A stretch of DNA of 64,000 nucleotides, from positions 3,968,001-4,032,000 of the forward strand of contig OX424561.1 of assembly GCA_949152475.1 (NCBI GenBank). The letters run 5' to 3'. The DNA comes from Terebella lapidaria. Its lineage: Eukaryota; Annelida; Polychaeta; Terebellida; Terebellidae. The position numbers and the translations under genes are program-made. The notes under the pieces are model-generated. The model ran no database searches and was not told the origin of the DNA. It worked only from the letters and a program-made list of their open reading frames with translations. This document shows positions 2,740 through 56,057 of this stretch, in pieces; the stretch's first letter is position 1; each line of letters begins with the position of its first letter.

Positions 2740-4460
2740 AGGCGTCAGAACGGATTACAAGTGGGACTCACTCAGGGCATGTCCCCATCCCAGGGTTCCC
2801 TGCTGTTCACTGAGGCACTTGCCGAGTCCAAGAACATGAGACTCTCTACCTTTGCTGCAGCACTTCGTGTTCAGAAGGCATTCGACATGGTGTGGCATAA
2901 CTCCCTGATGAGAAAACTACATATACTTGGAATGAACGACAACTGGCTCTTAAGAAAGACGATGCTGGACAATATATCCATCAGAGTCTGCGTTGGCGAC
3001 TGCCTTAGCAGACCAGCCAAGCTCTCCAAGGGTGTGGGCCAAGGCCGCCCCTGTTCGACCCATGACTGCAAGGCAATGATCAACGGTGTACTCAACATGG
3101 CCCTTACACAGTGAGTCTGGCCTTGGCATGAAGATAGGCCCATACCAACTGGTCGCCCCCACCTGAGCTGACGACATGTTAGTATTCACCAACGATTGAG
3201 ACGGAACTCCAGCTCCTCCTCGACATAGTCCTGGAATATTCCCAAGATGAGCGGTACACCATTCACCCAACAAAGTCCATGATCCTGGTGTACAACAGTG
3301 CCAAACCATTAGACACGAAGTACTCCTGGACGCTTGGAGACATAGTGATGCCTATCTCCCAGTCATGCCGGCACCTTGGTCTAGAGAGGTACTTCTAAGA
3401 TAGAGCTTCGTCAAAGATAATCAACGACTGCTTAAGCACTGCACGTTGAGCATTCTATGTCCTGATGGGTTTGGGATTTCATGGCAACAACGGTAACAGC
3501 CCCGCTGTCGTGCGTCAGATGTATCTCACCTACGTCATCCCCCGATGTATCTACGGCCTAGAAAGCATGATACTGAAGAAGTCACATCAGGAGTCAATTG
3601 AACGCTACCATCGCAAAACACTCAAGCAACTGATGATGATCAGAGGCCGTCCACTTGCTCACCGGGGTATCACCGATCACTGCCATCCTACACATCAAGG
3701 CGCTGTCACTGCTTGGGGTGATCGCCCAATAACCAGACACCATCATGCACTGAATCAGCCTATGAGGCTATGACACATGGCTGTGAAGGAAGTCAGATCG
3801 AACCACGGTTCATCTTCATGAGAGACTTTGCACAACTGTATGACCTGCCATCTCTGCCTGAACTGTTCGAAACCCCGATACCAAAGGTTCAAGGCGAGAT
3901 ATTGGTCAAAAAGAGTGCCTATGTCTTCTACGAGCAGAAGCTCCAACATGAGGCACAGGCCAAGTCAACATTCTCCAACCAGCATATAGACCTCCTCTCA
4001 CTCCATCAACCTTCACTCCTATTGTCCATGGGTTAGATCATCGGTGACCTATGTCATGCGATCCTATGTACACCTTAGACTGGCCATCGGTACCTACACC
4101 TTGCACCGCGACCAAGTGAAGTTCTACAAGAGCAACACGGACCCCACATACCTGATGTGCGCCACCACGTGTGAAGACATAACACATTTCCTTGCTCAGC
4201 GTCCTTCTCTCTATGACGAAAGGAGAATGTTCCTGAGCGACCTGGCAAACGACCTGATAGAGTAGTGATGGTATTAAGCATATTTGGCGACCCCAGTAAG
4301 TTTACCTCCCTTGTCATTGATCCATCATGGTGGTTCCATGAAGCCAAGCCATACCAGCGTATACCGGTAGTCATGTCTGAGACTCTCATCATCATTAGCT
4401 GCTACCTATATGCCATACACTGCCAGAGGAACAAACTCATCAACCCCATTGGAGGATAAT
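2740..4460 (+). pseudogene. Non-LTR retrotransposon (LINE) reverse transcriptase relic
   Basis: The fragment at 2761-3114 has the order typical of LINE reverse transcriptases: KAFDMVWH, then an L-x-KL-x-x-LG segment, then GVGQG just before the catalytic region. An A-D-D-M-L core can be read at about 3165-3185 in a different frame, so the copy is frameshifted at the active site. Further pieces at 3465-3773, 3770-4036, 4044-4265 and 4265-4459 lie in shifting frames and give the post-RT part, ending in a Cys/His-rich tail-like segment (ISCYLYAIHCQRN). It is 5' truncated and non-functional. I cannot assign the clade by eye. Confidence 0.75.
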
Positions 4461-39689: not shown

Positions 39690-40332
39690 GAACAATGGAG
39701 TACAAAAACGTAATGACGTTATTTCCAGAAGGTCATGTGATCAGCCTCGTTTTCGGTTTAAAAGGTGACGTGTCAGCCACTGATTGGTTCTAGAGTGTTT
39801 TTAGAAATTACGGAAAAATCAGTGTTTTGGCGGACTATGACGTCACAACCGTGTCAGCCACTGATTGGTTCTAGAGTGTTTTTAGAAATTACGGAAAAAT
39901 CAGTGTTTTGGCGGACTATGACGTCACAACCGGAGAACCGGAGAACCGGAGTCGGAACAATGGAGTACAAAAACGTAATGACGTTATTTCCGGAAGGTCA
40001 TGTGATCAGTACAAAAACGTAATGACGTTATTTCCGGAAGGTCATGTGATCAGCCTCGTTTTCGGTTTAAAAGGTGACGTGTCAGCCACTGATTGGTTCT
40101 AGAGTGTTTTTAGAAATTACGGAAAAATCAGTGTTTTGGCGGACTATGACGTCACAACCGGAGACGGAGTCGGAACAATGGAGTACAAAAACGTAATGAC
40201 GTTATTTCCGGAAGGTCATGTGATCAGCCTCGTTTTCGGTTTAAAAGGTGACGTGTCAGCCACTGATTGGTTCTAGAGTGTTTTTAGAAATTACGGAAAA
40301 ATCAGTGTTTTGGCGGACTATGACGTCACAAT
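39690..40332. repeat. Amplified CRE/CCAAT module in the solo LTR
   Basis: Whole or partial copies of a module of about 155-180 bp containing AATGACGTTATTTCCGGAAG, GTCAGCCACTGATTGGTTCT and GGCGGACTATGACGTCACAA. TGACGTCA occurs at 39838, 39919, 40147 and 40321, whereas the other LTRs have one such site each. Confidence 0.85.
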
Positions 40333-40340
40333 AGGTTGGT

Positions 40341-40370
40341 CACGTGACGTGGGTCTCAGGTCTATAAAAG
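40341..40370 (+). promoter_or_regulatory. LTR promoter of the solo LTR
   Basis: CACGTG at 40341-40346 and TATAAAAG at 40363-40370, 16 bp apart, directly downstream of the last CRE. The solo LTR therefore keeps an intact-looking promoter. Confidence 0.7.
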
Positions 40371-41399
40371 CCCCCGCTTCACAGCAGACGGCGGAGTTGG
40401 TGTCCTGACGTCGACCTGTGCAGACCCCTTCTCCCATAGCAGAGTACTCCCTTGCTCCGGCTTGTGTCATACCAGATGATAGCAGTTAAGTCTTCCGACT
40501 GTGCACTTGGAAAATAAACATGAAAACTTCAACCGAGTTGTTTTTCCGTGTTCGTTAGGGAACTGGAATTTATAATAAAGTTAGTTCACCGGAAAAGAAA
40601 GTAATACGGAGAAAAGGGAGATAAGTCCACAGTCGGTTAAGACCAAGTTGTAACGACGTCTTAGGGTGATCCAAGAACCCAGATCACCAAGGAAGGAGAC
40701 GGAGACGGAGGTGGAATTCAACGGAGCAACTACGGAGGCGGTACCGGATGAAGCAGTTGCAGAGGCGGTACCGGACAACGGAGTAGCAGAGGCAGTACCT
40801 GACGGAGCGGTTGCAGTGACCGGAAGTGAGAACACTTCCGAGATTCTCCATTTCAGGTGCAGTCGCAGGTTGCGGTGAGGCGGAGCCAACCGGAGCAGTT
40901 TGCAGTGAGGCGGAACCTGGCAGAGCGGTTGCAGTATTCGGAAACGGCAACGTTCCCGAATTCTCTATTCCAGGTGTAGTCGCAGTTGCAGTAAGGCAGA
41001 AAACGACGGAGCTGTTGCAGTAAAGCGGTATCCCGACGGAACAGTTGCAGTACCCGGAGACGGAAACGCCTCCGGATTCTTACTTTACAGGTGCAGTTGC
41101 AGATTGGCAGTCAGACAACGGTTAAGAGGTCCATTCCAGACCACGCTACCAACCTTCAGAGACTTCTAGCCGAAGTTCAACCGTACAGCAGTAGCAGTTT
41201 CCCGGAGTTTTACCGTTTCAGCTCCGGTTAAATAACAACTCACCCACCTCCCTAGAAAACCGGTTCATCAAGACGTCACAGAAGGGTGAAGAACCCGTTA
41301 CAATATGTAGTCAATCTAGTTATAGACCTGTAACATTCGTCTGTCATACAATGTCGATATCACTTTTTTCAGTGTTCACATTGTATATTTCTCTTGATT

Positions 41400-42029: not shown

Positions 42030-42439
42030 GGATACCCCTAAATGCATTTTTCGCGATTTTCGCATACTCGAAATAAGGGGGTATACTTAAATAGCCTCCT
42101 ATGTCAGTTTTATGGCACGGATCACTACATGGTATATACCGTTGGAAAGGTAATTGCATTATCTATCAAGTAATGTCCTCAAATCACATATAGGTTGAAT
42201 ATTTATCTGTCTATGGCCAGTCAAATAAAGTTTTCATCGACAACTCTGAACAAATTCCCCGAATCCATCATGTAGTACATGGCATGAGTTTATCCCCTGT
42301 GAACCCCTCAAATTCTCAAGCCACTGGTATGATTTTATCCTCTAAGGCCGACTGAATGGAGAAAAACGTGTTACCCGTAAATATATAGGGATAAATTTCC
42401 TTGTTGACACCCTTTGAAAACGGGTTCTGCTAATCATAT
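42030..42439. repeat. Host repeat into which the gypsy element inserted
   Basis: TTTTCGCGATTTTCGCATAC, AAATAAGGGGGTATACTT and GCCAGTCAAATAAA recur at 55258-55445 on the far side of the element. The gypsy insertion is in or next to this repeat. Confidence 0.75.
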
Positions 42440-43811
42440 TGTAACGGTTTTGGGGCGTACCCAAAAGATTACCCTAGGTAATTCTGTTAGTGTTTTGTGA
42501 TATTATGGTTAAATAACCGTTTATTAAAATGTATATGTGTTTAAAGGTTCATACGGTTCCGTATTGTTAATGTTTAAAAGGTTTTCCGTCTCGGAACTTG
42601 GTATATTTGTGATGTTGGTAAAGCCGGAGACGGAGCCGGAGACGGAGACGGAACCGGAGACGGAGTCGGAACAATGGAGTACAAAAACGTAATGACGTTA
42701 TTTCCGGAAGGTCATGTGATCAGCCTCGTTTTCGGTTTAAAAGGTGACGTGTCAGCCACTGATTGGTTCTAGAGTGTTTTTAGAAATCCGGAAAATATCA
42801 GTGTTTTGGCGGACTATGACGTCACAATAGGTTGGTCACGTGACGTGGGTCTCAGGTCTATAAAAGCCCCCGCTTCACAGTGGACGGCGGAGTTGGTGTC
42901 CTGACGTCGACCTGTGCAGACCCTTTCTCCCATAGCAGAGTACTCCCTTGTTCCGGATAGAGTCATCCAGATGATAGCAGTTAAGTCTTCTGACTGAAAA
43001 TAAACATGAAAACTTCAACCGAGTTGTTTTTCCGTGTTCGTTAGGGAACTGGAATTTATAATAAAGTTAGTTCACCGGAAAAGAAAGTAATACGGAGTAA
43101 AGGGAGATAAGACCACAGTCGGTTAAGACCAAGTTGTAACGACGTCTTAGGGTGATCCAAGAACCCAGATCACCAAGGAAGGAGACGGAGACGGAGGTGG
43201 AATTCAACGGAGCAACTACGGAGGCGGTATCGGACGGAGCAGTTGCAGAGACAGGAACGACGAAGCAGTTGCAGAGGCGATACCGTACGACGGAGTTGCA
43301 GAGGCAGTACCTGACGCAGCGGTTGCGGTAACCGGAAGTGAGAACACTTCCGAGATACCCCATTTCAGGTGCAGTCACAGGTTGAGGTGAGGCGGAGCCA
43401 ACCGGAGCAGTTTGCAGTGCGGCGGAACCTGGCAGAGCGGTTGCAGTATTCGGAAACGGCAACGTTCCCGGATTCTCATTCCAGGTGCAGTCGCAGTTGC
43501 AGTAAGGCGGAAAACGACGGAGCTGTTGCAGTAAAGCGGTATCCCGACGGAGCAGTTGCAGTACCCGGAGACGGAAACGCCTCCGGATTCTTACGTTACA
43601 GGAGCAGTTGCAGATTAGCAGTCGGACAACGGTTAAGAGGTCCATTCCAGACCACGCTACCAACCTTAGAGGCTTCTAGCCGGAGTTCAACCGTACAGCA
43701 GTAGCAGTATCCCGGAGTTTTACCGTTTCAGCTCCGGTTAAATAACAACTCACCCACCTCCCAAGAAAACCGGTTCATCAAGACGTCACAGAAGGGTGCA
43801 AACCCGTTACA
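42440..43811 (+). repeat. 5' LTR
   Basis: Starts TGTAACGG and ends CCCGTTACA, a 6-bp inverted terminus (TGTAAC/GTTACA). Compared with the 3' LTR it lacks about 11 bp near 42996 (the GTGCACTTG segment) and has a few point changes. It contains the CRE at 42817-42824, the promoter below, and AATAAA at 42999-43004. Confidence 0.93.
42817..42866 (+). promoter_or_regulatory. LTR promoter (CRE, CACGTG, TATA)
   Basis: TGACGTCA at 42817-42824, CACGTG at 42837-42842 and TATAAAAG at 42859-42866. An inverted CCAAT box (ATTGG) lies upstream at about 42760. This should drive the genomic RNA. The 3' LTR has the same sites at 54244, 54264 and 54286. Confidence 0.75.
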
Positions 43812-43817
43812 ACTTTT

Positions 43818-43835
43818 TGGTGGCAGCGGTGGGAT
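43818..43835 (+). other. Primer-binding site, tRNA-Leu type
   Basis: TGGTGGCAGCGGTGGGAT begins six bases after the 5' LTR. It is complementary to an 18-nt 3' end ATCCCACCGCTGCCACCA, which matches animal tRNA-Leu(AAG) as I remember it. This is the priming site for minus-strand DNA synthesis. Confidence 0.8.
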
Positions 43836-43845
43836 CATCTGCAGT

Positions 43846-45105
43846 ATGACTACTAGACGGGGCAAATTGGCGGAACAGCAGCTGAAGGCAGCCGTGTCGG
43901 ACACGGAGCAGCCTGTAGGAGCAGTAGGAGCTGAACCATTGCAGATGCCGGTTGCGGAGAAGGAAGCAGTTCGTCCTGCCGAGCGAAAGCTGTTGCAGCC
44001 GGAAATGCAGAAAGCAGTTGCAGAAGAGCCCCTTCGGGTTCCTCAAGGAGTACAGCCTGCAGAGCAGTTAGCAGAGGCGGAAATTAACTTTCCGGACCAG
44101 GCTGGCGATCGGGAACCGGATGCGGAGCCGGAAGGCGGAGAAAATTTAGTCGACAACCTGACCAGATTGTTGGCGACCCAAATGGAGGTGTCTCAGCAGC
44201 ACCTGGCAGTAACCGGAAAGCAGCAACAGGCAGAAGCAGTACAACAACCAGCACCAAGGGCAGGAGTAGCCAGATTAATGACGTACGACGGAACTGATCC
44301 GTGGTCGGAGTATGAGGCTCACCTCCTTGAATACGCTCGGTACTACCGTTGGACAGCAGAGGAAAAGGCGCTGAACTTATGTGTCAGTTTGAGGGGTAAC
44401 GCCCGCAGCATACTACTGGATCTGTCCGCGGAGCAGAGACGCAGCTTTGATACGGTTGTGGCGGCATTAAAACAGCAGTTTTGTCCGGGGGAGAAAACAT
44501 TTGTTTTCCAGGCGGAATTGCAGACGCGGAAATTGCAGCCGGAGGAGGAGCTGTCCGAGCTGGCCAGAGACATACGGAGCAAGACGCGGCTAGCTTACCC
44601 AAAAGCAGATCCGGCAACAACAGAAGTGCTCATGAAGATGCATTTCTGCAACAGTCTGACTAGCCGAGATATGCGGTTGTCGGTATTGAAAAGCCACCCG
44701 GAAACGCTGTCGCAGGCCCTGGCTTTCGCTACCGAGTATGAGAGTATTATGAAGACGGACAACAGCAGACCAGCGGAGCGACACCGGACGAGGCAGCTGA
44801 ACACGGAGCCGGAGTGGAGCCAGCAGGTGAACGAATTGCGGAAGCAAGCCGAGCAGACTCAGCAGCAGTTGGCGGATCTGATGACTCAGGTCAAGGAAGC
44901 GGTTAGCCGGCAGCAGCAGCAGCGCAGTTCTCGAGCGGATTTAGAATGCTTCAACTGTGGCCGGAAAGGGCATTTTGCTCGAGACTGTAGGCAGCCGAAG
45001 CAGCAGCAGCAGCGGCGTCAACCACAACAGCAGCAGTCGCCGCGACAACAGCAGCAGCAGCAGCCGCAGCAGCAGCCACGACAGCAGCAGCAGCCGGAAA
45101 ACTAG
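43846..45105 (+). CDS. gag: Gag polyprotein of the gypsy element
   Basis: An intact 419-residue frame. The first 140 residues are Ala/Glu/Gln-rich and disordered. Residues about 145-320 form the capsid-like region (PWSEYEAHLLEYARYYRW, LRGNARSILLDLS, FVFQAELQTRKLQPEEELSE). A predicted coiled segment with Gln-rich heptads follows (WSQQVNELRKQAEQTQQQL). A single zinc knuckle C-x2-C-x4-H-x4-C lies at 368-381 (CFNCGRKGHFARDC), followed by a Gln-rich tail. This is the structural protein that packages RNA into particles. The pol frame is already open across the gag stop, one base back, and GGAAAAC sits right before TAG, so -1 frameshifting is the likely route to Gag-Pol. Confidence 0.92.
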   Translation: MTTRRGKLAEQQLKAAVSDTEQPVGAVGAEPLQMPVAEKEAVRPAERKLLQPEMQKAVAEEPLRVPQGVQPAEQLAEAEINFPDQAGDREPDAEPEGGENLVDNLTRLLATQMEVSQQHLAVTGKQQQAEAVQQPAPRAGVARLMTYDGTDPWSEYEAHLLEYARYYRWTAEEKALNLCVSLRGNARSILLDLSAEQRRSFDTVVAALKQQFCPGEKTFVFQAELQTRKLQPEEELSELARDIRSKTRLAYPKADPATTEVLMKMHFCNSLTSRDMRLSVLKSHPETLSQALAFATEYESIMKTDNSRPAERHRTRQLNTEPEWSQQVNELRKQAEQTQQQLADLMTQVKEAVSRQQQQRSSRADLECFNCGRKGHFARDCRQPKQQQQRRQPQQQQSPRQQQQQQPQQQPRQQQQPEN

Positions 45106-46645
45106 AGCGGGTCGCGGAAAAGGGGAAATCCGGGACCCGGAAGAGAGGACACCCCCTTAACCGGCAGGTGGTTCACGGACCCGGTCCCAGGGGCGAGGTG
45201 GGCATGTGTGTGACAGCCAGAGTATGCGGAGAACCAGTAACGCTGATAATCGACACCGGCAGCACTGTCACAATGCTCAACCTACAAACCTGGGAACGGA
45301 TCCGGAAGCCCGGAATGAAGCTGAAGCGGTCGCCGATTCGTCTTTCAATGGTTGACGGAAGTAATATACGGACGCATGGCCGGAAAGAACTCCCACTCAA
45401 CAGCGCAGGAGTAGCTGAGACCGTGACGTTCGAGATTGCAGACTGTGAAGACGAAGGAATACTGGGAATGGATTTCATCCGTTCCCGGATATCCGGCATA
45501 AATTTCGACCGAATGACCATGCAGATGGGCAGCCAGGAGGTGTTCCTCACCATGTTCGAGCAGACCAGGGAGCCGTTTCCGATCAACGCTGTAGCAGATT
45601 ACCAAATTCCGCCGGAAACGGAACAGCTGATAATAGGACAAGCAGAGAGTGTCTGGGAAGCAGAAGGAGTACTAGAAATGCCGCAGGAGCCTACTGAGAA
45701 AAGACCTTGGCTGATCGAGAGAACTTTATCCCGGATAAAGCAAGGAACAGTCCCGGTTCGAGTGATCAATGTGATGGCGGAGCCGGTAATCATCAAGAAA
45801 GGAGCGCAGTTGGCGACGATGACCACCTTAGCAGCCGGTTGCAGTGTTGTGCCGTTGGCGGAGCGGAGCAGGAAGGTGCAGATTTCCACAGAGTCGGAGG
45901 CCGGGCGGAATTGGAGCGGGTACGAGAAGCTGCGGCAGTTAGCAGAGCAGACCCAGGATGCAGTGCCGAGTCATTTCCGCGAGAGAGTAACCGACCTCCT
46001 ATTTCGGAATAAGCCGACCTTCAGTAATGATGCCGGAGAACTGGGGCAGACCAACGAGGTACAACATCAGATAAACACGGGCAGTCACCGACCGATTAAG
46101 CAGCCAACCAGACGAATTCCGCCAGACAAGAGAGAGCTGGTGAGCAGTCTGATTCAGGAGATGAAAGACAAGAACGTCATTGAAGAAAGTAGCAGTCCGT
46201 GGGCTTCCCCGATTGTTCTGGTGAAGAAAAAGGATGGGAACACCCGGTTCTGTGTCGATTACCGGCGGTTAAATGCAGTCACGGAGAAAGATGCTTATCC
46301 GTTGCCGAGAATAGACGACACCATAGCAGCCTGTGCAGACGCCAAGTGGTTCTCCACTCTCAACCTGACCAGTGGATACTGGCAGGTCGGGATGGATGAA
46401 GACGCCCGGAAAAAGTCGGCCTTCTGTGTTCCTGGCGGCCTTTACCAGTTCAAAGTCATGAGTTTCGGCTTGTGCAATGCTCCGGGTACGTTTGAGCGGT
46501 TGATGGAGAAGGTGCTGGGCGGATTGTCCTGGAAGACCTGCCTCATATATCTGGACGACATCATAGTCTACAGCAAGACCCTGGAGGATCACATCCGTGA
46601 TCTGCAGATGTTCAGCAAGCTGAGAGAGGCAGACCTAAAAGTCAA
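45105..46645 (+). pseudogene. pol: Pol: protease and RT (frame broken at its 3' end)
   Basis: The frame runs on from the gag overlap. The aspartic protease active site is LIIDTGSTVTML (about 45245-45280) and its second conserved motif is ILGMDFIRS (about 45460). RT follows: RFCVDYRRLNAV, FSTLNLTSGYWQV, CVPGGLYQFKVMSFGLCNAP and the catalytic YLDDIIVYS (about 46549-46575). An A run at 46644-46647 has an odd base count that shifts the frame, so the remainder of RT is read in another frame from here. Function of a complete family member: process the polyprotein and copy RNA into DNA. Confidence 0.9.
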
Positions 46646-47640
46646 AATGCAAGTTCTTCCAGCCGGAGGTGTCTTTCCTAGGTCACATAGTCGGCAGAGA
46701 CGGTATCCGCACCGACCCGGCAAAAACGGAGGCAGTACGGAAGTGGCGGACACCCACCAACCTGACGGAGCTGCGCAGTTTTCTGGGACTTTGCTCCTAT
46801 TACCGGAAGTTCGTGCCGAAGTTCTCCGAGATTGCAGCGCCGCTGAATCACTTGACGGAAAAAGGGGTGCAGTTCCGGTGGCAGACGGAGCAAGAGCAGG
46901 CATTTGCAGAGCTGAAGAACCGCCTAGTATCGGCACCGATACTCGGGTACCCAAGGGAGCAAGGCTGATATATCCTGGACACGGACGCCAGTGACACCGG
47001 GCTGGGAGCAGTACTGTCACAGAAGCAGGGCAACCAGGAGCGGGTGATAACCTACTTGAGCCGCAGCCTAACCAAAGAAGAACGGAGATATTGTGTCACC
47101 CGGAAGGAGCTCCTGGCGGTTGTGTTTGCGGTACAGAAGAATAAGCAGTACTTGCTGGGACGACACTTCCTTCTTCGCACGGATCATGGCAGTCTTACCT
47201 GGCTTATGAATTTCAAGGAGCCCCAGGGGCAGGTAGCCCGGTGGATTGAGCTCCTGAGTGAGTTTCATTTCGACATCGAACATCGTCCGGGGCGAATCCA
47301 TAATAATGCGGATGCCTTGTCCAGATCCCCATGCAGCCAATGCGGAAAAATCGACTGGAAACAAGCCAAGATAGACGCCTGGAACTACGGAAAAAGGATC
47401 CGGCAGACACGAAGTGAAGAAACTCCTCAGCCCAAGCCAAGGAAGGGGGGACGCCGGAAGCGGTCACGGAGATCGGGCGGAGAAGCAGAACTGACGGAGG
47501 AAGCAGTCCCAAGGAAGGCGGTTGCAGTAGCAGAGAAAGCAGCATCCCGGAAGCCGGTTGCGGTTGCGGTGACGGAGGAAGCAGCGTCCCGGAAGCCGGT
47601 TGCGGTTGCGGTGACGGAGAAAGCAGCGTTCCAGGAAAAG
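46646..47640 (+). pseudogene. pol: Pol: RT thumb and RNase H (nonsense and frameshift)
   Basis: The frame starting at about 46646 includes [11 protein letters not shown] and [18 protein letters not shown], the RT connection. A TGA at 46966-46968 stops it just before the RNase H start (LDTDASDTGLGAVLSQ). RNase H continues with SLTKEERRYCVTRKELLAVV and ends in FDIEHRPGRIHNNADALSR (to about 47330). A 90-residue basic-Ala/Val repeat-rich spacer (KPVAVAVTEEAASR twice) then separates RNase H from integrase. A further frame change lies around 47620-47640. Confidence 0.88.
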
Positions 47641-49117
47641 CGGATGCGGTTGCAGAGCAGATTAGTCTGGCGGAAAATGCGGACCAGGATACTGTGCTGG
47701 GGCAGAAATATCGACCAGATGATTTGCGGAGAATGCAGCAAGCAGAACCTTGGTACCCACTGGTGACGTCGCTGATCGACGGGAGCGGTACAGCTGGCAG
47801 TGCAGACTTTTCCAGCATGAGCAGCGAGGAGAAAGTGCTGTACGGGATGCGGAAGACCTTGCTGAAAGTCGACGGAGTAGTCTACCGGAAATGGAAAACG
47901 GCAGAAGGAACCAGCCGAATGCAGTTAATAACCCCGAAGGAGCTGAGACAGGAGATTTTCCGTCTGGCCCATCAGAGCCGGACGGGAGGACACCTCGGAA
48001 GCAGAAGGATGGCGGCTAGCATTCGGAGGCGGTATTTCTGGCCGGCTATGATGCGGGACATAAAGCAGTGGGTGCTGAGCTGTGACGAATGTGCGTCAAG
48101 AAGTATGCAGAACTTGAAACGATCTCCGATGCAGAAATACCGGTTTGGAGCGCCCATGGAGAGGGTGGCAATGGACGTGATGGGTCCGTTACCTAAATCC
48201 ACCCGGGGGAACTGTACATCTTAGTAATCAGTGATTACTTCACCAAGTGGGTAGAGGCTTACCCGATGCCGAATCAGGAAGCGGTGACGGTTGCGGACAT
48301 ATTCGTCAACCAGTTTGCAGCGCGGTACGGTATCCCGATGGAGATACACACCGACCAAGGCAGAAATTTCGAGTCCGACTTGCTGAGAAATGTTTGCAGA
48401 ATCCTGGGGATTCACAAGACACGGACAACCGCTTTCCGACCTCAGTCGGACGGTTTCATTGAGCGATTCAACCGGACGCTGCAGCAAATCCTGAGCCTGT
48501 ACGTAAGCGAGCGGCAGACCAACTGGGATCAACTAGTACCGTTGGCGATGGCAGCTTACCGGAGTACCCCGCAGGAGACAACCGGGCAGAGCCCCAATTT
48601 GCTGATGCTGGGCAGAGAAGTCAACACTCCGGTAGAGTTACTGATTGGCAGGCCGCCGGGAGAATCAACAGCAGAAGTAACAGAGTATGGCAGTCAGCTC
48701 CGGGAGCGACTAGAAGTGGTATACAAGGCGGTTCGAGCGAAATCTGGCAGAGAGATGGAACGACAGAAGAAGCTGTACAACCGGAGAAAGGTCGACAATC
48801 AGTTCCAGCCAGGAGACTGAGTGTGGATGGCGGTCAAAACACGGAAGAAGGGCAAGGCACCCAAGTTGCAGAGGAAGTGGAGCGGTCCAAAGCTAGTGCT
48901 GAGCAGATTTACCGACGTAACCTACGAGATTGCAGAGAGTGAAACTCGGCAGAAGGTGGTTCACTTCGATATGCTGAAACCGTATAATGGTGTCAAGCAT
49001 CCGAGATGGATGAGGCAGAGAATGGCGGATTCCTGGAGGCAGACGGAGCCGCCGAAGCAGAGTAGTGTTCCGGAGACGGAACAGACGGTCTCTGAGTCGG
49101 ATACGGACTCGGAGTAA
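47640..49117 (+). pseudogene. pol: Pol: integrase (frameshift and nonsense)
   Basis: The zinc module is H-x-H... C-x2-C: AHQSRTGGHLGSRRMAASI, then WVLSCDECAS. The core starts ERVAMDVMGPLPK (first Asp) and continues HTDQGRNFESDLL (second Asp) and PQSDGFIERFNRTLQ (the Glu). A G run at 48205-48209 shifts the frame between them. A TGA at 48818-48820 breaks the start of the C-terminal domain (PGD then VWMAVKTRKKGK). The C-terminus has LKPYNGVKHPRWM and an acidic Ser-rich tail ending SDTDSE, with no chromodomain that I can see. Strand-transfer enzyme of the element, inactive in this copy. Confidence 0.88.
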
Positions 49118-49850
49118 AGCCGCAGAGGACGAAGAAATATGAGAAGACGGAGTGAGCTGTAGAGCAGGAGAAGGAGATAGCTGAGACCCTGGTAAAACGT
49201 TGAGTTCCGGCAGAGAGCGACCGCAAGAAGTTGGAACAATGAGCTAGTGCTGGTTCCGGAAACAGGGCGGAGAAAGGAAGCAGAGCGGAAAAGCGGTGCA
49301 GGGACCGGATAGAGACATCCTAGAGGTTCTGACTGGGTTGAGAGCATAGTCAACCAGTCCAGGGTAGCGGCCAGGGGTCCAGAAGAACCTGGGTTAGCGG
49401 TCTAGTATCTCCAGAGAAGCAGCTACACGTCTTCCGTATTCAGAGAATTAAGACGGAAAAGTTTTCCGGCTGTAGACATCCAACCGGAGTTTCCACTTAG
49501 CAGAGACAGTAAACCGACTGCAGATTGACAGAAACGGAGAAACATCACCCCAGATAGGAAGGCGCCTCCTTCTGGACAAGAATGTATGCAGTTTCCAGTG
49601 TCGACAAGCAGTAATACCAGTGAGCAGATATGCAGTTGAAGAAGCGGTACAGATGGCGGAAACGCCCAACTTGCAGTCTAGATGTTCGTCTGGCAGGCAG
49701 ATTCAACTGGCTGAGACTCTATTCAACCCTCCTGATGGCAGAGATACTTCAAAATTGCAGATACTTCGCTCGGAGAAGCAGTTGAAAGGGAGCCGGAAAA
49801 ACCCGGAGAAGCCGGTTGAGCCGGAGACGGACACCTCTCGGTTAACGGTT
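49118..49850 (+). other. Conserved non-coding block after pol
   Basis: There is no frame of note. At 49185, about 70 bp after the pol stop, stands GACCCTGGTAAAACGTTGAG; relic A has the near-identical GACTCTGGTAAAACGTTGAG at the same distance (23311). Later matching words include ATAGAGACATCC / ATAGGAGACATCC and GGGTTAGCGGTCT / GGGTTAGAGATCT. CTG|GTAAAA could be a splice donor. Confidence 0.6.
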
Positions 49851-49867
49851 GAGTTTTTGCATAATTG

Positions 49868-49937
49868 TGACGTCACTCCTGAGGCAGCCAATCAGCGTGG
49901 AGCTCTTCAAGTCACGTGAGCAGAAAGGGTATAAAAG
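49868..49937 (+). promoter_or_regulatory. Internal promoter for accessory ORF1 (first copy)
   Basis: TGACGTCA at 49868-49875, GCCAATCA at about 49887-49894, CACGTG at 49913-49918 and TATAAAAG at 49930-49937. These are the same elements as in the LTR promoter, with an 11-bp gap between E-box and TATA. A start codon for a truncated ORF1 copy follows at 50185. Confidence 0.7.
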
Positions 49938-50660
49938 GGCCTTGAAATCGGGCTCTGAGAGCAGTTGAAGAGCAGACCTCGAGCTGTGCACATCGCTGTT
50001 AAAGTTTGGCGGAATCGAATCAAGTCCAGCATTTTCCGGCAGCGGCAGATTTTGCAGTGAAAAACGACTAAGTGTTTCCCGGAAGACCACCAGTCCGGAG
50101 AAGCGGTGCAGCAGAAGCGGTGAAGAAGCGGTGCAGTAAAAGCGGTGCAGTAGATCGACAACTTCAGTTTCCTGGCTTTCCGGAATGGCCTACTCGGCGT
50201 TCCTTGGAAGACAAGCTGCTTCTCTGGAGATACTAGACCGCTAACCCAGCGTGGAGCTCTTCAAGTCACGTGAGCAGAAAGGGTATAAAAGGGCCTTGAA
50301 ATCGGGCTCTGAGAGCAGTTGAAGAGCAGACCTCGAGCTGTGCACATCGCTGTTAAAGTTTGGCGGAATCGAATCAAGTCCAGCATTTTCCGGCAGCGGC
50401 AGATTTTGCAGTGAAAAACGACTAAGTGTCTTCCAAGGAAAGTTTAAAGTTTGGCGGAATCGAATCAAGTCCAGCATTTTCCGGCAGCGGCAGATTTTGC
50501 AGTGAAAAACGACTAAGTGTTTCCCGGAAGACCACCAGTCCGGAGAAGCGGTGCAGCAGAAGCGGTGAAGAAGCGGTGCAGTAAAAGCGGTGCAGTAGAT
50601 CGACAACTTCAGTTTCCTGGCTTTCCGGAATGGCCTACTCGGCGTTCCTTGGAAGACAAG
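49893..50660. repeat. Duplication of promoter and start of accessory ORF1
   Basis: The sequence from CAGCGTGGAGCTCTTCAAG (49893) through the leader to ATGGCCTACTCGGCGTTCCT (50185) is repeated from about 50246 to 50660. Part of the leader (AAAGTTTGGCGGAATCGAAT to AACGACTAAGTGT) is present a third time (50440-50520). Only the last copy leads into the full ORF. Confidence 0.85.
50267..50291 (+). promoter_or_regulatory. Internal promoter for accessory ORF1 (second copy)
   Basis: CACGTG at 50267-50272 and TATAAAAG at 50284-50291, duplicated from the first copy. The CRE and CCAAT box were not copied. This is the nearest promoter to the full ORF1 start at 50630. Confidence 0.65.
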
Positions 50661-51295
50661 ATCGCGGCCGGAGCAGAGATTGGGCAAGCCCTCAGCCCCT
50701 GGATTATAGCCGGCTGTGTAAGCGGTGTGACCGGATGTTCGAGAGTGAGACGGACAGGAGACGGCATGTGTGCCCAACCCAGAGGTATCATTGCTGTTTG
50801 TGTGCCTTCTACGGCAACCGGGCGAACGACCTTAGGCGGCATCTCCGGGAGATGCACGGCTGGAAGTACCCTTCCGGGAACCGTCCTCCTCAGGACGAGG
50901 CAACCCTCAACCATGTGGGAACCTTCGATTCGGCCTGGCGGGGAACAGCAACGCAGTCCCGGCGGAAGCGGTTCCGGAGATTCTGCAAACAGTCTCCCAG
51001 GGAGAAACCAGTTCCGGAGACTTATGCGGACCAGCTTCCGTTCGGACCTGACTGGGATGCCGGAGCAGCCGCCCCCATCGGACAACCGGAGTGGTTAGAT
51101 CAACCGGAATGGGCCCCGGACCCGCAGGGCTGTCTCCGGGCCGCCGAAGAAGACCAAGCGGAGGATTGGGAGGCGGAAATCCGTGCCAGAGAATACCGGC
51201 CTCCATCTCCCACCTCGGAACCGGAGACGGATGAGTCGGAGTATGTGACGGCAGATGAGGAATCCTGGACGGAAGCGAAGGCAGTGTGGCAGTAG
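50630..51295 (+). CDS. Accessory ORF1: C2H2-finger protein with acidic tail
   Basis: An intact 221-residue frame on the element strand, 1.5 kb after pol. Residues 1-25 are Arg-rich. C30-x2-C33 with H46 and C48 forms a degenerate finger. C55-x2-C58-x12-H71-x4-H76 forms a C2H2 finger (ending DLRRHLREMHGW). Residues 95-120 are basic (SRRKRFRRFCK). The C-terminal half is strongly acidic with Trp and Pro (EDQAEDWEAEIRAREYRPP, ETDESEYVTADEESWTE), which resembles a transcription activation region. The start is ATG 50630 after a duplicated promoter. The same finger and tail occur in relic A. No known retroelement protein family fits; it is neither env-like (no signal peptide or membrane segment) nor a chromodomain. 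A DNA- or RNA-binding regulator is my inference. Confidence 0.8.
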   Translation: MAYSAFLGRQDRGRSRDWASPQPLDYSRLCKRCDRMFESETDRRRHVCPTQRYHCCLCAFYGNRANDLRRHLREMHGWKYPSGNRPPQDEATLNHVGTFDSAWRGTATQSRRKRFRRFCKQSPREKPVPETYADQLPFGPDWDAGAAAPIGQPEWLDQPEWAPDPQGCLRAAEEDQAEDWEAEIRAREYRPPSPTSEPETDESEYVTADEESWTEAKAVWQ

Positions 51296-51420
51296 CGGAG
51301 GCAGATGGCAGTGTGGCAGTAGCGGAGGCGGTTGGCAGTGTAGCCGTAGACGGAGACGGTTGGCAGTTTGGCGGAGACGGAAGAAGCGGTGGCAGTTAGC
51401 AGCAACAACACGGAAAAAAA

Positions 51421-51427
51421 AATAAAA
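51421..51427 (+). terminator. Possible poly(A) signal after accessory ORF1
   Basis: AATAAAATAAA lies 126 bp after the ORF1 stop and before the ORF2 promoter. It would give ORF1 its own short transcript. It is AT-rich and simple, so the call is weak. Confidence 0.35.
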
Positions 51428-51487
51428 TAAAAAAAATTATTATTTATCCAAGAAGACCACCAGGAGGAGTTGCAGTTTGCTGAGCAG

Positions 51488-51538
51488 CCAATCATCAAGC
51501 AGATAAGCCAGTCACGTGACTTCCAGAGACTATAAAAG
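51488..51538 (+). promoter_or_regulatory. Internal promoter for accessory ORF2
   Basis: CCAATCA at about 51488, CACGTG at 51513-51518 and TATAAAAG at 51531-51538, 12 bp apart. The start codon at 51616 is 78 bp downstream of the TATA box. AATAAAATAAAAAAAATTATTATTTAT at about 51421-51447, just upstream, could end the ORF1 transcript. Confidence 0.7.
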
Positions 51539-51615
51539 GGGCAGATAGCTGTTACCGGATGCAGAAGGCAGTTTGCTGTAGCTGAGTCAACATCGACACT
51601 AAGCAGAGAATCAGA

Positions 51616-53583
51616 ATGCCGAAAGTAAAGACAACACCCCGCAAGCCCCGCCCTCACCGGTGTGGAGACTGCAACATAGAGTTCAAGAGCAAGCACACTT
51701 TGCTCCGGCATGTCACGGAGCAGCACACGAGTGAAGTCACCGTCTTCGCCTGTCCGCCGTGTGACCATTGGAGCAGACGGAAAGAGGGGACACAGAAGCA
51801 TCTGCAGTCCCGACACGCAATGGACGCGAACCCGATTCGACTAAGGGTTGGCAGAGAGCAGTTTGAGGAGAAAAGCCTCCGGTCCAAGATGACCCCACGG
51901 AAGCATCTGCAGTCCTGACACGCAATGGACGCGAACCCGATTCGACTAAGGGTTGGCAGAGAGCAGTTTGAGGAGAAAAGCCTCCGGTCCAAGACGACCC
52001 CACGGAAAAGCAAGAAGCCGGTAACACGGCTTGACCAGTTGTCGGATACGGAGTCGGAGTCGGGAGGTTCGGTTGCGTCCCGGACCCGGTACCGTTCCGG
52101 TACCCAGTCGGTGGCCGCCTTAGCAGCCGACGTTTCGTCCACGGAGGCGGGGAGTAGTTCGGAAGAAGAAGCAGAGCTGAAAATCATGGCAAGTGAAGAC
52201 GAGTTGCAGGACCCGGAGGACCCGAAGCCGGTTAAGCCGCCAGTGACCCGGAGTTCTTCCCGGAACACCTCCCGGAAAAACAGCCCAGACCCATCTCGAG
52301 GTACCGGAGCAGATCGGGACCGCGGAAAGAAGCGGAGTCGCAGCCGTTCGCCGGATAAATCCGGTCGCCATCAACGCCGGGAATATAGGAAAGAGAGCCC
52401 GGAGCGCGCCAAGGACCGAGGCGGAGAACGTGGCCGAGAGGAGAAACGACACACCCCACCCAAGTCTTCAGGAGGCAGCGTCAAGGGAAAAGGCAAGGCG
52501 GTGTATGACTACAAGTTCCGGCTGTTGGAGGAAGGTTCCAGCGGAGCAGCGGCAGAAGTTGGAGTAGCAGACATTGCGGAAATGCAGAGCAGAGACGATG
52601 AGGAAGACCTTTTCCGGAGCCCACCTCCGAGAACGACTAGCAGTGGCAGAGCAGTGAGCAGCGTGATTGTCCGGCCCGGAGGCGGAGCAGAAAGCAGATC
52701 CAGCGGCCGAGCAGATAGCCGAGCCGATAGCAGAGCAGATAGCCGAGCCGATAGCAGAACAGATAGCAGAGCAGATAGCCGAGCGGACAGCAGACCCATT
52801 GGCAGATCCGGAGGCAGGCCGGAGACCAAAGCGGAAGGCGGAACCCGGAGCAGAGCTGTCAGTGAGACGGAGACCCGAGGATCCACGGAGAGAACTTTAC
52901 CGGCAACCATTCAAGCAGTAGCCGGAAGCAGAACCAGTTCAGCGGCTAGGGATGACGGAATGGAGTCTTCCGCGTCTGACCGAAGCCATGCGGACGTGCA
53001 GAGAGCCCGGAGGAGTATCCTGGTAGACCAAGCCAGAGCTACACCCGGAATCCTGTCTCCGGTGGAAACCCGACCTCGACAGTCTTCCAGTGAGCGGTCC
53101 GGGAGGAGCCAAGTCCGTGCACCAACCCAGAGTCCACCCTACACATTCTACCCGTTTGGCGGTCCTTCAACTCAACCGTGTCCGTCCCATTGTTTCCTGG
53201 TGAATACTGGGGGACGGAGCGCTTCCGTCTTTGCACCTGCAGTCCCGGAGCACGCCAGATACTATGCAGTACGTTGGGGACCGGAGCAGTGGGGGCCAGC
53301 CGAGATGAGAGACTCCGGCGTCTATGTGGAGATCATGGAGCAGAGAGAGTCACCGTTTGGTCTCGTCCCGACCCGTCAGATCGTCCGGATTCCAGATTGG
53401 TCCATCCGGGACGAACGCCTCAGGAATGGGTTCTACGTCCCGCCCCAGTGGAGCCTCCATGATCCCGATCTTCTTCCGGTTGATGCCAGAGGAACAAGCT
53501 TCGGACGACCGTTGGTACCAAATACCATTCCACCCCGTCCGCCGTCGGGGAGTAGTTCGCGCCGTGATACTGGTGGGCAGTAG
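51616..53583 (+). pseudogene. Accessory ORF2: two C2H2 fingers plus RS-rich protein, one in-frame stop
   Basis: From ATG 51616, finger 1 is C16-x2-C19-x12-H32-x4-H37 and finger 2 is C46-x2-C49-x12-H62-x4-H67. A 105-bp in-frame duplication then repeats, and its second copy has TGA at 51916-51918 where the first has CGA. The same frame stays open to 53583. It holds an acidic/Ser part, an Arg/Ser segment (KKRSRSRSPDKSGRHQRREY, about 135-175 of the second piece), a tetrapeptide ADSR repeated seven or so times, and a C-terminal globular-looking part rich in Trp, Tyr and Pro (RYYAVRWGPEQWGP). The RS segment resembles those of splicing SR proteins. Relic A has the same layout. In this copy either a 100-residue finger protein or a restart product could be made. 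Confidence 0.78.
51796..52005. repeat. 105-bp in-frame tandem duplication in accessory ORF2
   Basis: Two copies, 51796-51900 and 51901-52005, both beginning AAGCATCTGCAGTCC. They differ by the CGA/TGA change at 51916 and a few other bases. The length is 35 codons, so the frame is kept. Confidence 0.92.
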
Positions 53584-53853
53584 TCGTCGCAAGTCGTCGC
53601 AAGTCGCCGCAAGTTGTCGCAAGTCAAGTCGGCGCAAGGAGAAGAAAGAAGAACCGTTTCCCGGATTCTAGTATAATTAAGAGTTAAAAGTGGGAAACGG
53701 AACAAGCAAGATATCCGGGTACAGTGACGGTAAACTAGTTAAGAGATACCAGTACCCGGATCACGGAAACAGTTGTGTTTGATTTTACGGACAGTTTAAC
53801 GGTTGACAATTTGTATATATGTGATATTGATCTGTTCGGGACGAACAGAGTCT

Positions 53854-53866
53854 AAGGAAGGGGGAG
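53854..53866 (+). other. Polypurine tract
   Basis: AAGGAAGGGGGAG lies directly before the 3' LTR TGTAAC, as needed for plus-strand priming. Confidence 0.85.
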
Positions 53867-55250
53867 TGTAACGGTTTTGGGGCGTACCCAAAAGTTTCCC
53901 CTAGGTAATTCTGTTAGTGTTTTGTGATATTATGGTTAAATAACCGTTTATTAAAATGTATATGTGTTTAAAGGTTCATACGGTTCCGTATTGTTAATGT
54001 TTAAAAGGTTTTCCGTCTCGGAACTTGGTATATTTGTGATGTTGGTAAAGCCGGAGACGGAGCCGGAGACGGAGACGGAACCGGAGACGGAGTCGGAACA
54101 ATGGAGTACAAAAACGTAATGACGTTATTTCCGGAAGGTCATGTGATCAGCCTCGTTTTCGGTTTAAAAGGTGACGTGTCAGCCACTGATTGGTTCTAGA
54201 GTGTTTTTAGAAATCCGGAAAATATCAGTGTTTTGGCGGACTATGACGTCACAATAGGTTGGTCACGTGACGTGGGTCTCAGGTCTATAAAAGCCCCCGC
54301 TTCACAGCGGACGGCGGAGTTGGTGTCCTGACGTCGACCTGTGCAGACCCTTTCTCCCATAGCAGAGTACTGCCTTGTTCCGGATAGAGTCATCCAGATG
54401 ATAGCAGTTAAGTCTTCTGACTGTGCACTTGGAAAATAAACATGAAAACTTCAACCGAGTTGTTTTTCCGTGTTCGTTAGGGAACTGGAATTTATAATAA
54501 AGTTAGTTCACCGGAAAAGAAAGTAATACGGAGTAAAGGGAGATAAGACCACAGTCGGTTAAGACCAAGTTGTAACGACGTCTTAGGGTGATCCAAGAAC
54601 CCAGATCACCAAGGAAGGAGACGGAGACGGAGGTGGAATTCAACGGAGCAACTACGGAGGCGGTATCGGACGGAGCAGTTGAAGAGACGGGAACGACGAA
54701 GCAGTTGCAGAGGCGGTACCGGACGACGGAGTTGCAGAGGCAGTACCTGACGGAGCGGTTGCGGTAACCGGAAATGAGAACACTTCCGAGATACCCCATT
54801 TCAGGTGCAGTCACAGGTTGCGGTGAGGCGGAGCCAACCGGAGCAGTTTGCAGTGCGGCGGAACCTGGCAGAGCGGTTGCAGTATTCGGAAACGGCAACG
54901 TTCCCGGATTCTTTATTCCAGGTGCAGCCGCAGTTTGCAGTAAGACGGAAAACAACGGAGCTGTTGCAGTAAAGCGGTATCCCGACGGAGCAGTTGCAGT
55001 ACCCGGAGACGGAAACGCCTCCGGATCCTTACTTTACAGGTGCAGTTGCAGATTAGCAGTCGGACAACGGTTAAGAGGTCCATTCCAGACCACGCTACCA
55101 ACCTTCAGAGACTTCTAGCCGGAGTTCAACCGTACAGCAGTAGCAGTTTCCCGGAGTTTTACCGTTTCAGCTCCGGTTAAATAACAACTCACCCACCTCC
55201 CCAGAAAACCGGTTCATCAAGACGTCACAGAAGGGTGCAAACCCGTTACA
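53867..55250 (+). repeat. 3' LTR
   Basis: 1384 bp, TGTAACGG ... CCCGTTACA, followed by ATAT (target duplication). TATAAAAG at 54286-54293 and AATAAA at 54435-54440, which is probably the element's poly(A) signal. It is about 98 percent like the 5' LTR by eye. Confidence 0.93.
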
Positions 55251-55450
55251 ATATCTTTCGCGATTTACGTATACTCAAAAATAAGGGGGTATACTTGGTA
55301 AATAGCCTACTTTGTCGGTTTCATTTCACAGATCACTGTGAGTTATATAACATTGGAAAGAGAATTGATTCATCTATCCAACGATGTCTTCAAATTGCAT
55401 ATATCTTTAATATTGATTTGCCCACGGTCAGTCAAATAAATTTGTCACCT
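55251..55450. repeat. Host repeat on the 3' side of the gypsy insertion
   Basis: Matches 42030-42240 (AATAAGGGGGTATACTT, CAGTCAAATAAA). See the entry for the left side. Confidence 0.75.
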
Positions 55451-56057
55451 AGATAATCCAATTACCTTTCCAACGGTATACACGGTGTACAAATCTGCTG
55501 CAGTATCTGATTGGATACGAATGTGGATAAATTATAATTAACGAATTAATGACAATTCACAACCATCAAAATTTTAGCTTGACCACAACGTAACGCTGTC
55601 ATGAAGAATGGCAACATTAAACCGCCTTAAATTTAACACTGTCATCACGCTACAAAATTCAGGACACGGGTTTTTACTACCATTGTAACTGGCCAATAAT
55701 TTTTTTTCTTGGTCAGTGAAACTATATCTTGAAAATTGTTCTCAAATATAGACAAGCCTATCAAACTGAAATAATGCATTTTATGAAACACCAGGTGAAA
55801 ACAACTTACTCGCGACATGTGGTATGTAGCGCGTGCTTCAAAGCATATCTATAGTTCGTTATTTGTATTAGAAAAAAGTTTCAGGTGCAAAATGTTCAGA
55901 TAAAGCCGCATATTTTATGTAAATTGTTTCATTCTGAAATTGATATCCCGAGAGATATGCGTATTGATAATAATCAAACATGTCAATCGCTATTATTGAA
56001 GTTAATCACGGCAATGCAGTTTTTTTCTATGATTTTACTTCTGGTTGAAATATTTTG
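55451..56057. other. Intergenic DNA, nothing recognised
   Basis: AT-rich; no coding signal or clear repeat structure. Confidence 0.4.

Follow-up and report, generated by a model that had tools for sequence, protein, structure and literature searches.

LTR retrotransposons without an envelope are usually pictured as having one promoter and one polyprotein. The gypsy errantiviruses carry env, and the foamy virus Tas is an accessory protein which activates both the LTR and an internal promoter. The element described here, found in a stretch of 64,000 nucleotides (the window) of the Terebella lapidaria genome (761.6 Mb in 438 contigs), resembles errantiviruses in having extra sense ORFs between integrase and the 3′ LTR, but these ORFs have no membrane segment or signal peptide. 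It may also resemble foamy viruses, for which the available part of the source describes an internal promoter besides the LTR promoter, ahead of the Tas/Bel accessory genes near the 3′ end (PMC7828637); foamy viruses are however Retroviridae with env, whereas the window element has two internal blocks which are putative promoters. A third possible likeness, consisting of repeated words in non-coding DNA, is to the VANDAL elements, whose VANC is presented in the accessible portions of two sources as an element-encoded, sequence-specific protein with short repeated non-coding targets that differ by family (PMC5735166, PMC10398659). VANDALs are however DNA transposons of plants, no relation to VANC is seen in the window element, and anti-silencing would here be a guess. 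The nearest printed case that we found, according to the part of the source at hand, is the plant Retand group of gypsy elements, which have a likely DNA-binding accessory ORF after pol (PMC11963269). As far as that part goes, the Retand ORFs are antisense and encode TRP28, while those of the window element are sense, of the C2H2 type and accompanied by promoter-like blocks (PMC11963269); no match to TRP28 was obtained in a Pfam scan of the window element. Troyka elements are animal LTR elements close to Metaviridae, but they end in CG...CG where the window element has TG...CA, and the consulted portion of their description mentions no accessory gene (PMC12440569). LTR retroelements with accessory regulators are a kind already known, into which the cassette would fall; among the open-access PMC papers searched, we recognised no gypsy element whose accessory genes are of the C2H2 or TatD type.

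The initial annotation had placed a Ty3/gypsy element with two zinc-finger ORFs after integrase at 42440..55250, and the assignment to gypsy agrees with the LTRs, the ATAT flanks, the CCHC gag, the protease, RT and integrase domains and the purine tract. The features of the window copy are as follows.

42440-55250, plus strand: Ty3/gypsy element, with paired LTRs, flanks and gag/pol domains
42440..43811, plus strand: 5′ LTR, with a promoter-like block (TGACGTCA at 42817, GTCACGTGA at 42835, TATAAAA at 42859)
43821..43836, plus strand: primer-binding-site-like stretch, first letters TGG, found by eye
43846..45105, plus strand: gag ORF, 419 aa with a CCHC knuckle, an open frame (ORF list, Pfam)
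45168..49117, plus strand: pol (protease, RT, RNase H, integrase), in several broken frames in the window copy
49868..49936, plus strand: promoter-like block A (TGACGTCA at 49868, CCAAT at 49888, GTCACGTGA at 49911, TATAAAA at 49930)
50247..50290, plus strand: duplicated partial block A (GTCACGTGA at 50265, TATAAAA at 50284), present among the copies read in the window copy only
50630..51295, plus strand: ORF-A, 221 aa, intact, with two zinc fingers (finger 1 C2HC-like, finger 2 CCHH)
51488..51537, plus strand: promoter-like block B (CCAAT at 51488, GTCACGTGA at 51511, TATAAAA at 51531)
51616..53583, plus strand: ORF-B, stop-interrupted here, with two N-terminal CCHH fingers, then an RS-rich and repeat-rich low-complexity region and a C-terminal part
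51791..52000, plus strand: 105-bp tandem duplication within ORF-B
53854..53866, plus strand: polypurine tract before the 3′ LTR, found by eye
53867..55250, plus strand: 3′ LTR

The two LTRs, of 1372 and 1384 bases, are 98.47% identical (1351/1372 aligned bases), and ATAT adjoins the element at both termini. With its TG...CA ends, primer-site-like stretch, polypurine tract and gag-pol order, the element belongs to the Metaviridae (Ty3/gypsy). The Pfam scan gave the domain order CCHC, Asp_protease_2, RVT_1, Integrase_H2C2 and rve, RNase H being placed by position, and pol frames of more than 1400 aa are open in other copies of the family. A further LTR copy, 88.7% identical to the 5′ LTR and without an internal part nearby, lies at 39901-41300 of the window. 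Just outside the element are inverted repeat arms (42126-42165 and 55450-55489, 90% complementary), and the element may sit within another repeat.

Of the two long plus-strand ORFs announced after integrase, ORF-A is intact, but ORF-B is not one open frame in the window copy, as an in-frame stop (51916-51918), which falls within the tandem duplication, breaks it. In 21 of the 29 other ORF-B-centred copies read, ORF-B has the same start and stays open for 590 aa or more. The leader of ORF-A is partly duplicated (49893-50660); this duplication, the broken pol and the promoter-like blocks are additions to what the initial annotation noted. The tandem finger spacing C-x2-C-x12-H-x3..5-H is found in both ORF-B fingers and in the second ORF-A finger, in agreement with the spacing claimed for both ORFs; in single-protein scans, every accessory protein scanned scores under the gathering cut-off of the C2H2 Pfam models. 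Hydropathy shows no membrane segment or signal-peptide-like stretch in ORF-A or ORF-B, the maximum over 19 residues being -0.01 for ORF-A and 0.12 and 0.82 for the two ORF-B pieces, which rules out env, as had been proposed on the same grounds. The protein search with ORF-A found one match, P0001 (177 aa, from an 868-base contig), with 74% identity over 66% of the query, and that with ORF-B piece 2 found no relative at E 0.001 among the 7992 candidates scored. The reading that we prefer, and to which we give an even chance, is that the proteins of the cassette are self-encoded DNA-binding regulators acting on the LTR and the internal promoters.

Searches of the genome gave 227 matches for ORF-A (708 first-look candidates, 150 scored) and 81 for ORF-B (2509 first-look candidates, 79 scored). 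Among the other ORF-A-centred loci (n = 19), 18 have the integrase end upstream, and all 19 have the post-integrase spacer upstream and ORF-B downstream. The other ORF-B-centred loci (n = 29; two copies are common to both sets) have an ORF-A type upstream in 28 cases and an LTR downstream in all 29. L031, the exception, lacks pol and ORF-A, its gag and protease frames lying immediately 5′ of ORF-B, and is an internally deleted derivative. The pooled omega (dN/dS), computed from open-frame copies only, so that nonsense changes are left out and missense ones kept, is 0.24 for ORF-A (29 type-1 loci; 2.08 and 1.51 in the wrong frames) and 0.145 for ORF-B (21 copies; 1.71 and 1.70 in the wrong frames). 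ORF-A and ORF-B are genes of the element itself, on which purifying selection is strong. The initial annotation had foreseen two refutations, a lack of purifying selection between copies, which the omega values contradict, and ORFs that are host genes captured once, in one copy only; this second explanation, together with that of an assembly chimera, is contradicted by the high copy number, the fixed position (19/19, 28/29 and 29/29) and the selection, and can be considered as good as ruled out.

The ORF-A genes are of diverged types, A1 and A2 being about 71% identical in DNA with an omega of 0.22 and a dS of about 1.5, whereas the flanks of elements with different ORF-A types are 96-100% alike, which indicates that the ORF-A segment was exchanged or diverged alone. 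Among L009-L058, some copies fuse the start of one ORF-A type to the end of another, the types being about 29% apart in DNA. Such diverged forms in otherwise near-identical elements are reminiscent of an arms race, as would be expected if the proteins acted against a host defence (zinc-finger repressors, piRNA or DNA methylation) in some way that does not involve binding to the DNA of the element itself. We find this improbable, considering the omega of 0.22 between the types and that a host partner is not known.

The promoter-like blocks share a design in which GTCACGTGA is followed after 10-15 bases by TATAAAA, with a CCAAT or ATTGG box upstream; TGACGTCA is additionally present in the LTR and in block A. 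There are five such blocks, one per LTR, two 5′ of ORF-A (where the block is duplicated in the window copy) and one 5′ of ORF-B, and all CACGTG and all plus-strand TATAAAA of 42440-55250 fall inside them. The general pattern occurs 2436 times genome-wide against 3 for the reversed control, while block A has 624 and block B 465 matches with at most 3 mismatches, against 0 for the controls. Four block-A sites about 2264 bases apart at G000:C3:54622874-54629693 represent a tandem array of a part of the element. Since recombination can copy LTR-like pieces, the internal blocks could be fossils derived from the LTR rather than promoters, with ORF-A and ORF-B translated from spliced or full-length RNA. 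This is unlikely, as the blocks are intact in most copies (A in 22/24 sites, B in 42/45 with copies counted once, that of the 3′ LTR in 28/28) and kept in the older relative L060, where block A keeps 93 of 100 columns, other nearly gap-free stretches of 100 columns keeping 65-95 and the well-aligned ones 73-95; moreover, neither ORF-A nor ORF-B is preceded by an acceptor that scores above shuffles. The non-coding spacer stretch at about 49330-49430, after integrase, keeps 95 of 100 columns in L060, i.e. more than block A. No RNA structure signal was obtained for the conserved spacer near 49300-49450 (z +0.62), so that reading it as an RNA structure is not supported.

Repeated 8-mers are enriched in the LTR (z 33) and the spacers (z 12-85) compared with the PR-RT region (z 1.8), and the LTR of L059, an element of another family, has a different repeated word (z 7.4). 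Repeats by themselves prove little, since high values are also reached by gag, which has CAG runs (z 36.5), and by host DNA (z 6.5 and 31).

The pattern of the LTR core led to L059, which represents a separate gypsy family (its second integrase piece is 41% identical) and has a 640-aa two-finger gene directly after integrase. Searches with the accessory proteins of L059 and its relatives, and with the sister integrase (125 matches), were compared by position; this was done for 98 of the 125 integrase matches, the last 27, which are window-family-like, being left out, and 54 of the 98 come from other families. A listed two-finger match lies downstream on the same strand in 38 of these 54, at 80-529 bases from integrase in 37 cases and at 3030 in one, the chance expectation being about 0.02 of the 38 integrase/two-finger pairs. 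Another six have a gene in which the fingers are joined to a TatD domain. Five of the ten without a listed match were read, of which L068, L069, L070 and L072 have two-finger ORFs and L071 has none downstream of its integrase. Such a gene is thus found in 48 of the 54 relatives from other families, with five of the remaining six unread. For the window family, 18 of 44 integrases match the 22 ORF-A/ORF-B positions entered for comparison, and among the matches listed for 150 integrase cores of all kinds, at least 9 two-finger and at least 14 finger-TatD genes lie within 2.5 kb. The short downstream flanks of the control loci L001-L008 (eight, of which one is copia-like and two overlap) contain no such fingers. 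In the integrase tree, 14 rows of the group split from 6 control rows with full support, the rows having been picked by similarity and the controls representing about two lineages; L077, the row for L071, where the gene is absent, is inside the group. In the copies read, the cassette genes occupy a fixed place between gypsy integrase and LTR, and two-finger genes also follow integrase in other gypsy families, which means that more than one element has the trait.

In the PDB, a profile of nine sister finger regions matched successive fingers of CTCF (E about 1e-13), with PRDM9 as the best hit (1.5e-15). It covers both fingers of ORF-B (hhalign probability 81%, E 1.3e-5), from which ORF-B is probably kin to the sister gene, whereas its match to ORF-A is weak (19%, E 0.0012) and leaves a relation between ORF-A and these genes uncertain. 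An acidic motif, F-x-P-D-Y, possibly an activation motif, is common to L059, L064, L065, L073, P0002, P0003 and P0005; ORF-A has F-G-P-D-W, and the motif is absent from L062, L066, L068, L069, L072 and ORF-B. The finger-TatD fusion is exemplified by one of the sister loci.

L073:573-2129: accessory gene of 519 aa, with two finger-like motifs and a TatD domain (PF01026, E 2e-35)

The HxH, E, H, H and D metal-binding motifs, which we take to be the metal ligands of TatD, are present in this protein, as is one hydrophobic stretch (1.84). Scoring 83 of 306 candidates gave 86 matches to this gene in the genome, and 16 related proteins were found elsewhere, of which P0002-P0005 have finger-like motifs and TatD, and P0016 is from the sea urchin Diadema antillarum. 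The fusion raises the question of a nuclease role in a retroelement, and would suit cDNA or end processing if the fingers directed the pre-integration complex, or integration as such, towards particular sites in chromatin in the manner of a chromodomain or of the Ty3 targeting factor. The gene also adjoins integrase in the sister families, but in the loci read it is a separate gene with no integrase fusion, and the internal promoter layout better suits an early regulator; we consequently assign a low probability to a targeting function.

Splice acceptor scores were compared with those of shuffles for ten sister genes. Strong acceptors precede the start codon in L064, L068, L069 and L070 (p 0.003-0.007), fair ones in L065, L062 and L059 (p 0.05-0.11), and poor ones in L066, L072 and L073, while neither ORF-A nor ORF-B has an acceptor better than shuffles. 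This difference suggests that the sister families probably splice their message and that the window family probably uses internal promoters. The plausible acceptors in seven of the ten sister genes, four of them strong, also bear on whether the proteins could bind the RNA of the element for export, packaging or splicing control, like Rev-like factors or the CERV protein of Cer1, the latter being a precedent in the part of its description available, since unspliced RNA would need help leaving the nucleus. The 33 RS/SR dipeptides of ORF-B piece 2 would fit such a role as well. We nevertheless hold RNA binding to be doubtful, as the profile matches are to DNA-binding C2H2 proteins and the 49300-49450 spacer carries no sign of RNA structure.

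We return to the cassette proteins as DNA-binding regulators of their own element. The initial annotation had proposed that they regulate the element by binding nucleic acid, perhaps at its promoter or on its RNA, and the conserved cassette, together with the similar genes of related families, suggests retroelements which encode their own regulators. Two element-encoded, two-finger proteins of nuclear type would be produced from two internal promoters, which would be laid out like that of the LTR (CCAAT or ATTGG, the CACGTG palindrome and TATA). The proteins would bind short repeated motifs of the LTR and of the non-coding spacers, and this binding would activate the element or protect it from silencing, a role as transactivator or anti-silencer being the most likely. 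If the proteins turn on the element or keep it open, they would be early regulators made from their own promoters, with gag-pol expressed from the LTR. Three steps of this model are inferred from sequence features: the promoter function of the blocks, the binding of DNA by the proteins and their action on their own element. We counted in favour of this model the gene order, the selection, the blocks, the recurrence of two-finger genes in sister families, the profile matches to CTCF and ORF-B and the repeated words of the LTR and spacers, and against it that gag and host DNA have repeats as well, that another spacer stretch is kept as well as block A, that ORF-A fits the sister profile poorly, that ORF-B piece 2 found no relative among the candidates scored, and that the RS-rich ORF-B suits RNA as well as DNA.

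A broader proposal, which we put forward tentatively, is that the whole gypsy lineage may be organised like complex retroviruses, with a two-finger DNA-binding master regulator after integrase which would be spliced in the sister families and is in some of them fused to TatD. The window family would have duplicated this gene and placed both copies under copies of the LTR promoter, giving an autoregulated programme of early and late expression, with target motifs that differ from family to family. If true, complexity like that of retroviruses would have arisen independently outside Retroviridae, in a gypsy lineage with its own conserved zinc-finger genes and a number of promoter-like blocks. 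With the cassette it would also become possible to test in a concrete case if retroelements of animals code for activators or anti-silencing factors that are sequence-specific, which have so far been best shown in plant DNA transposons.
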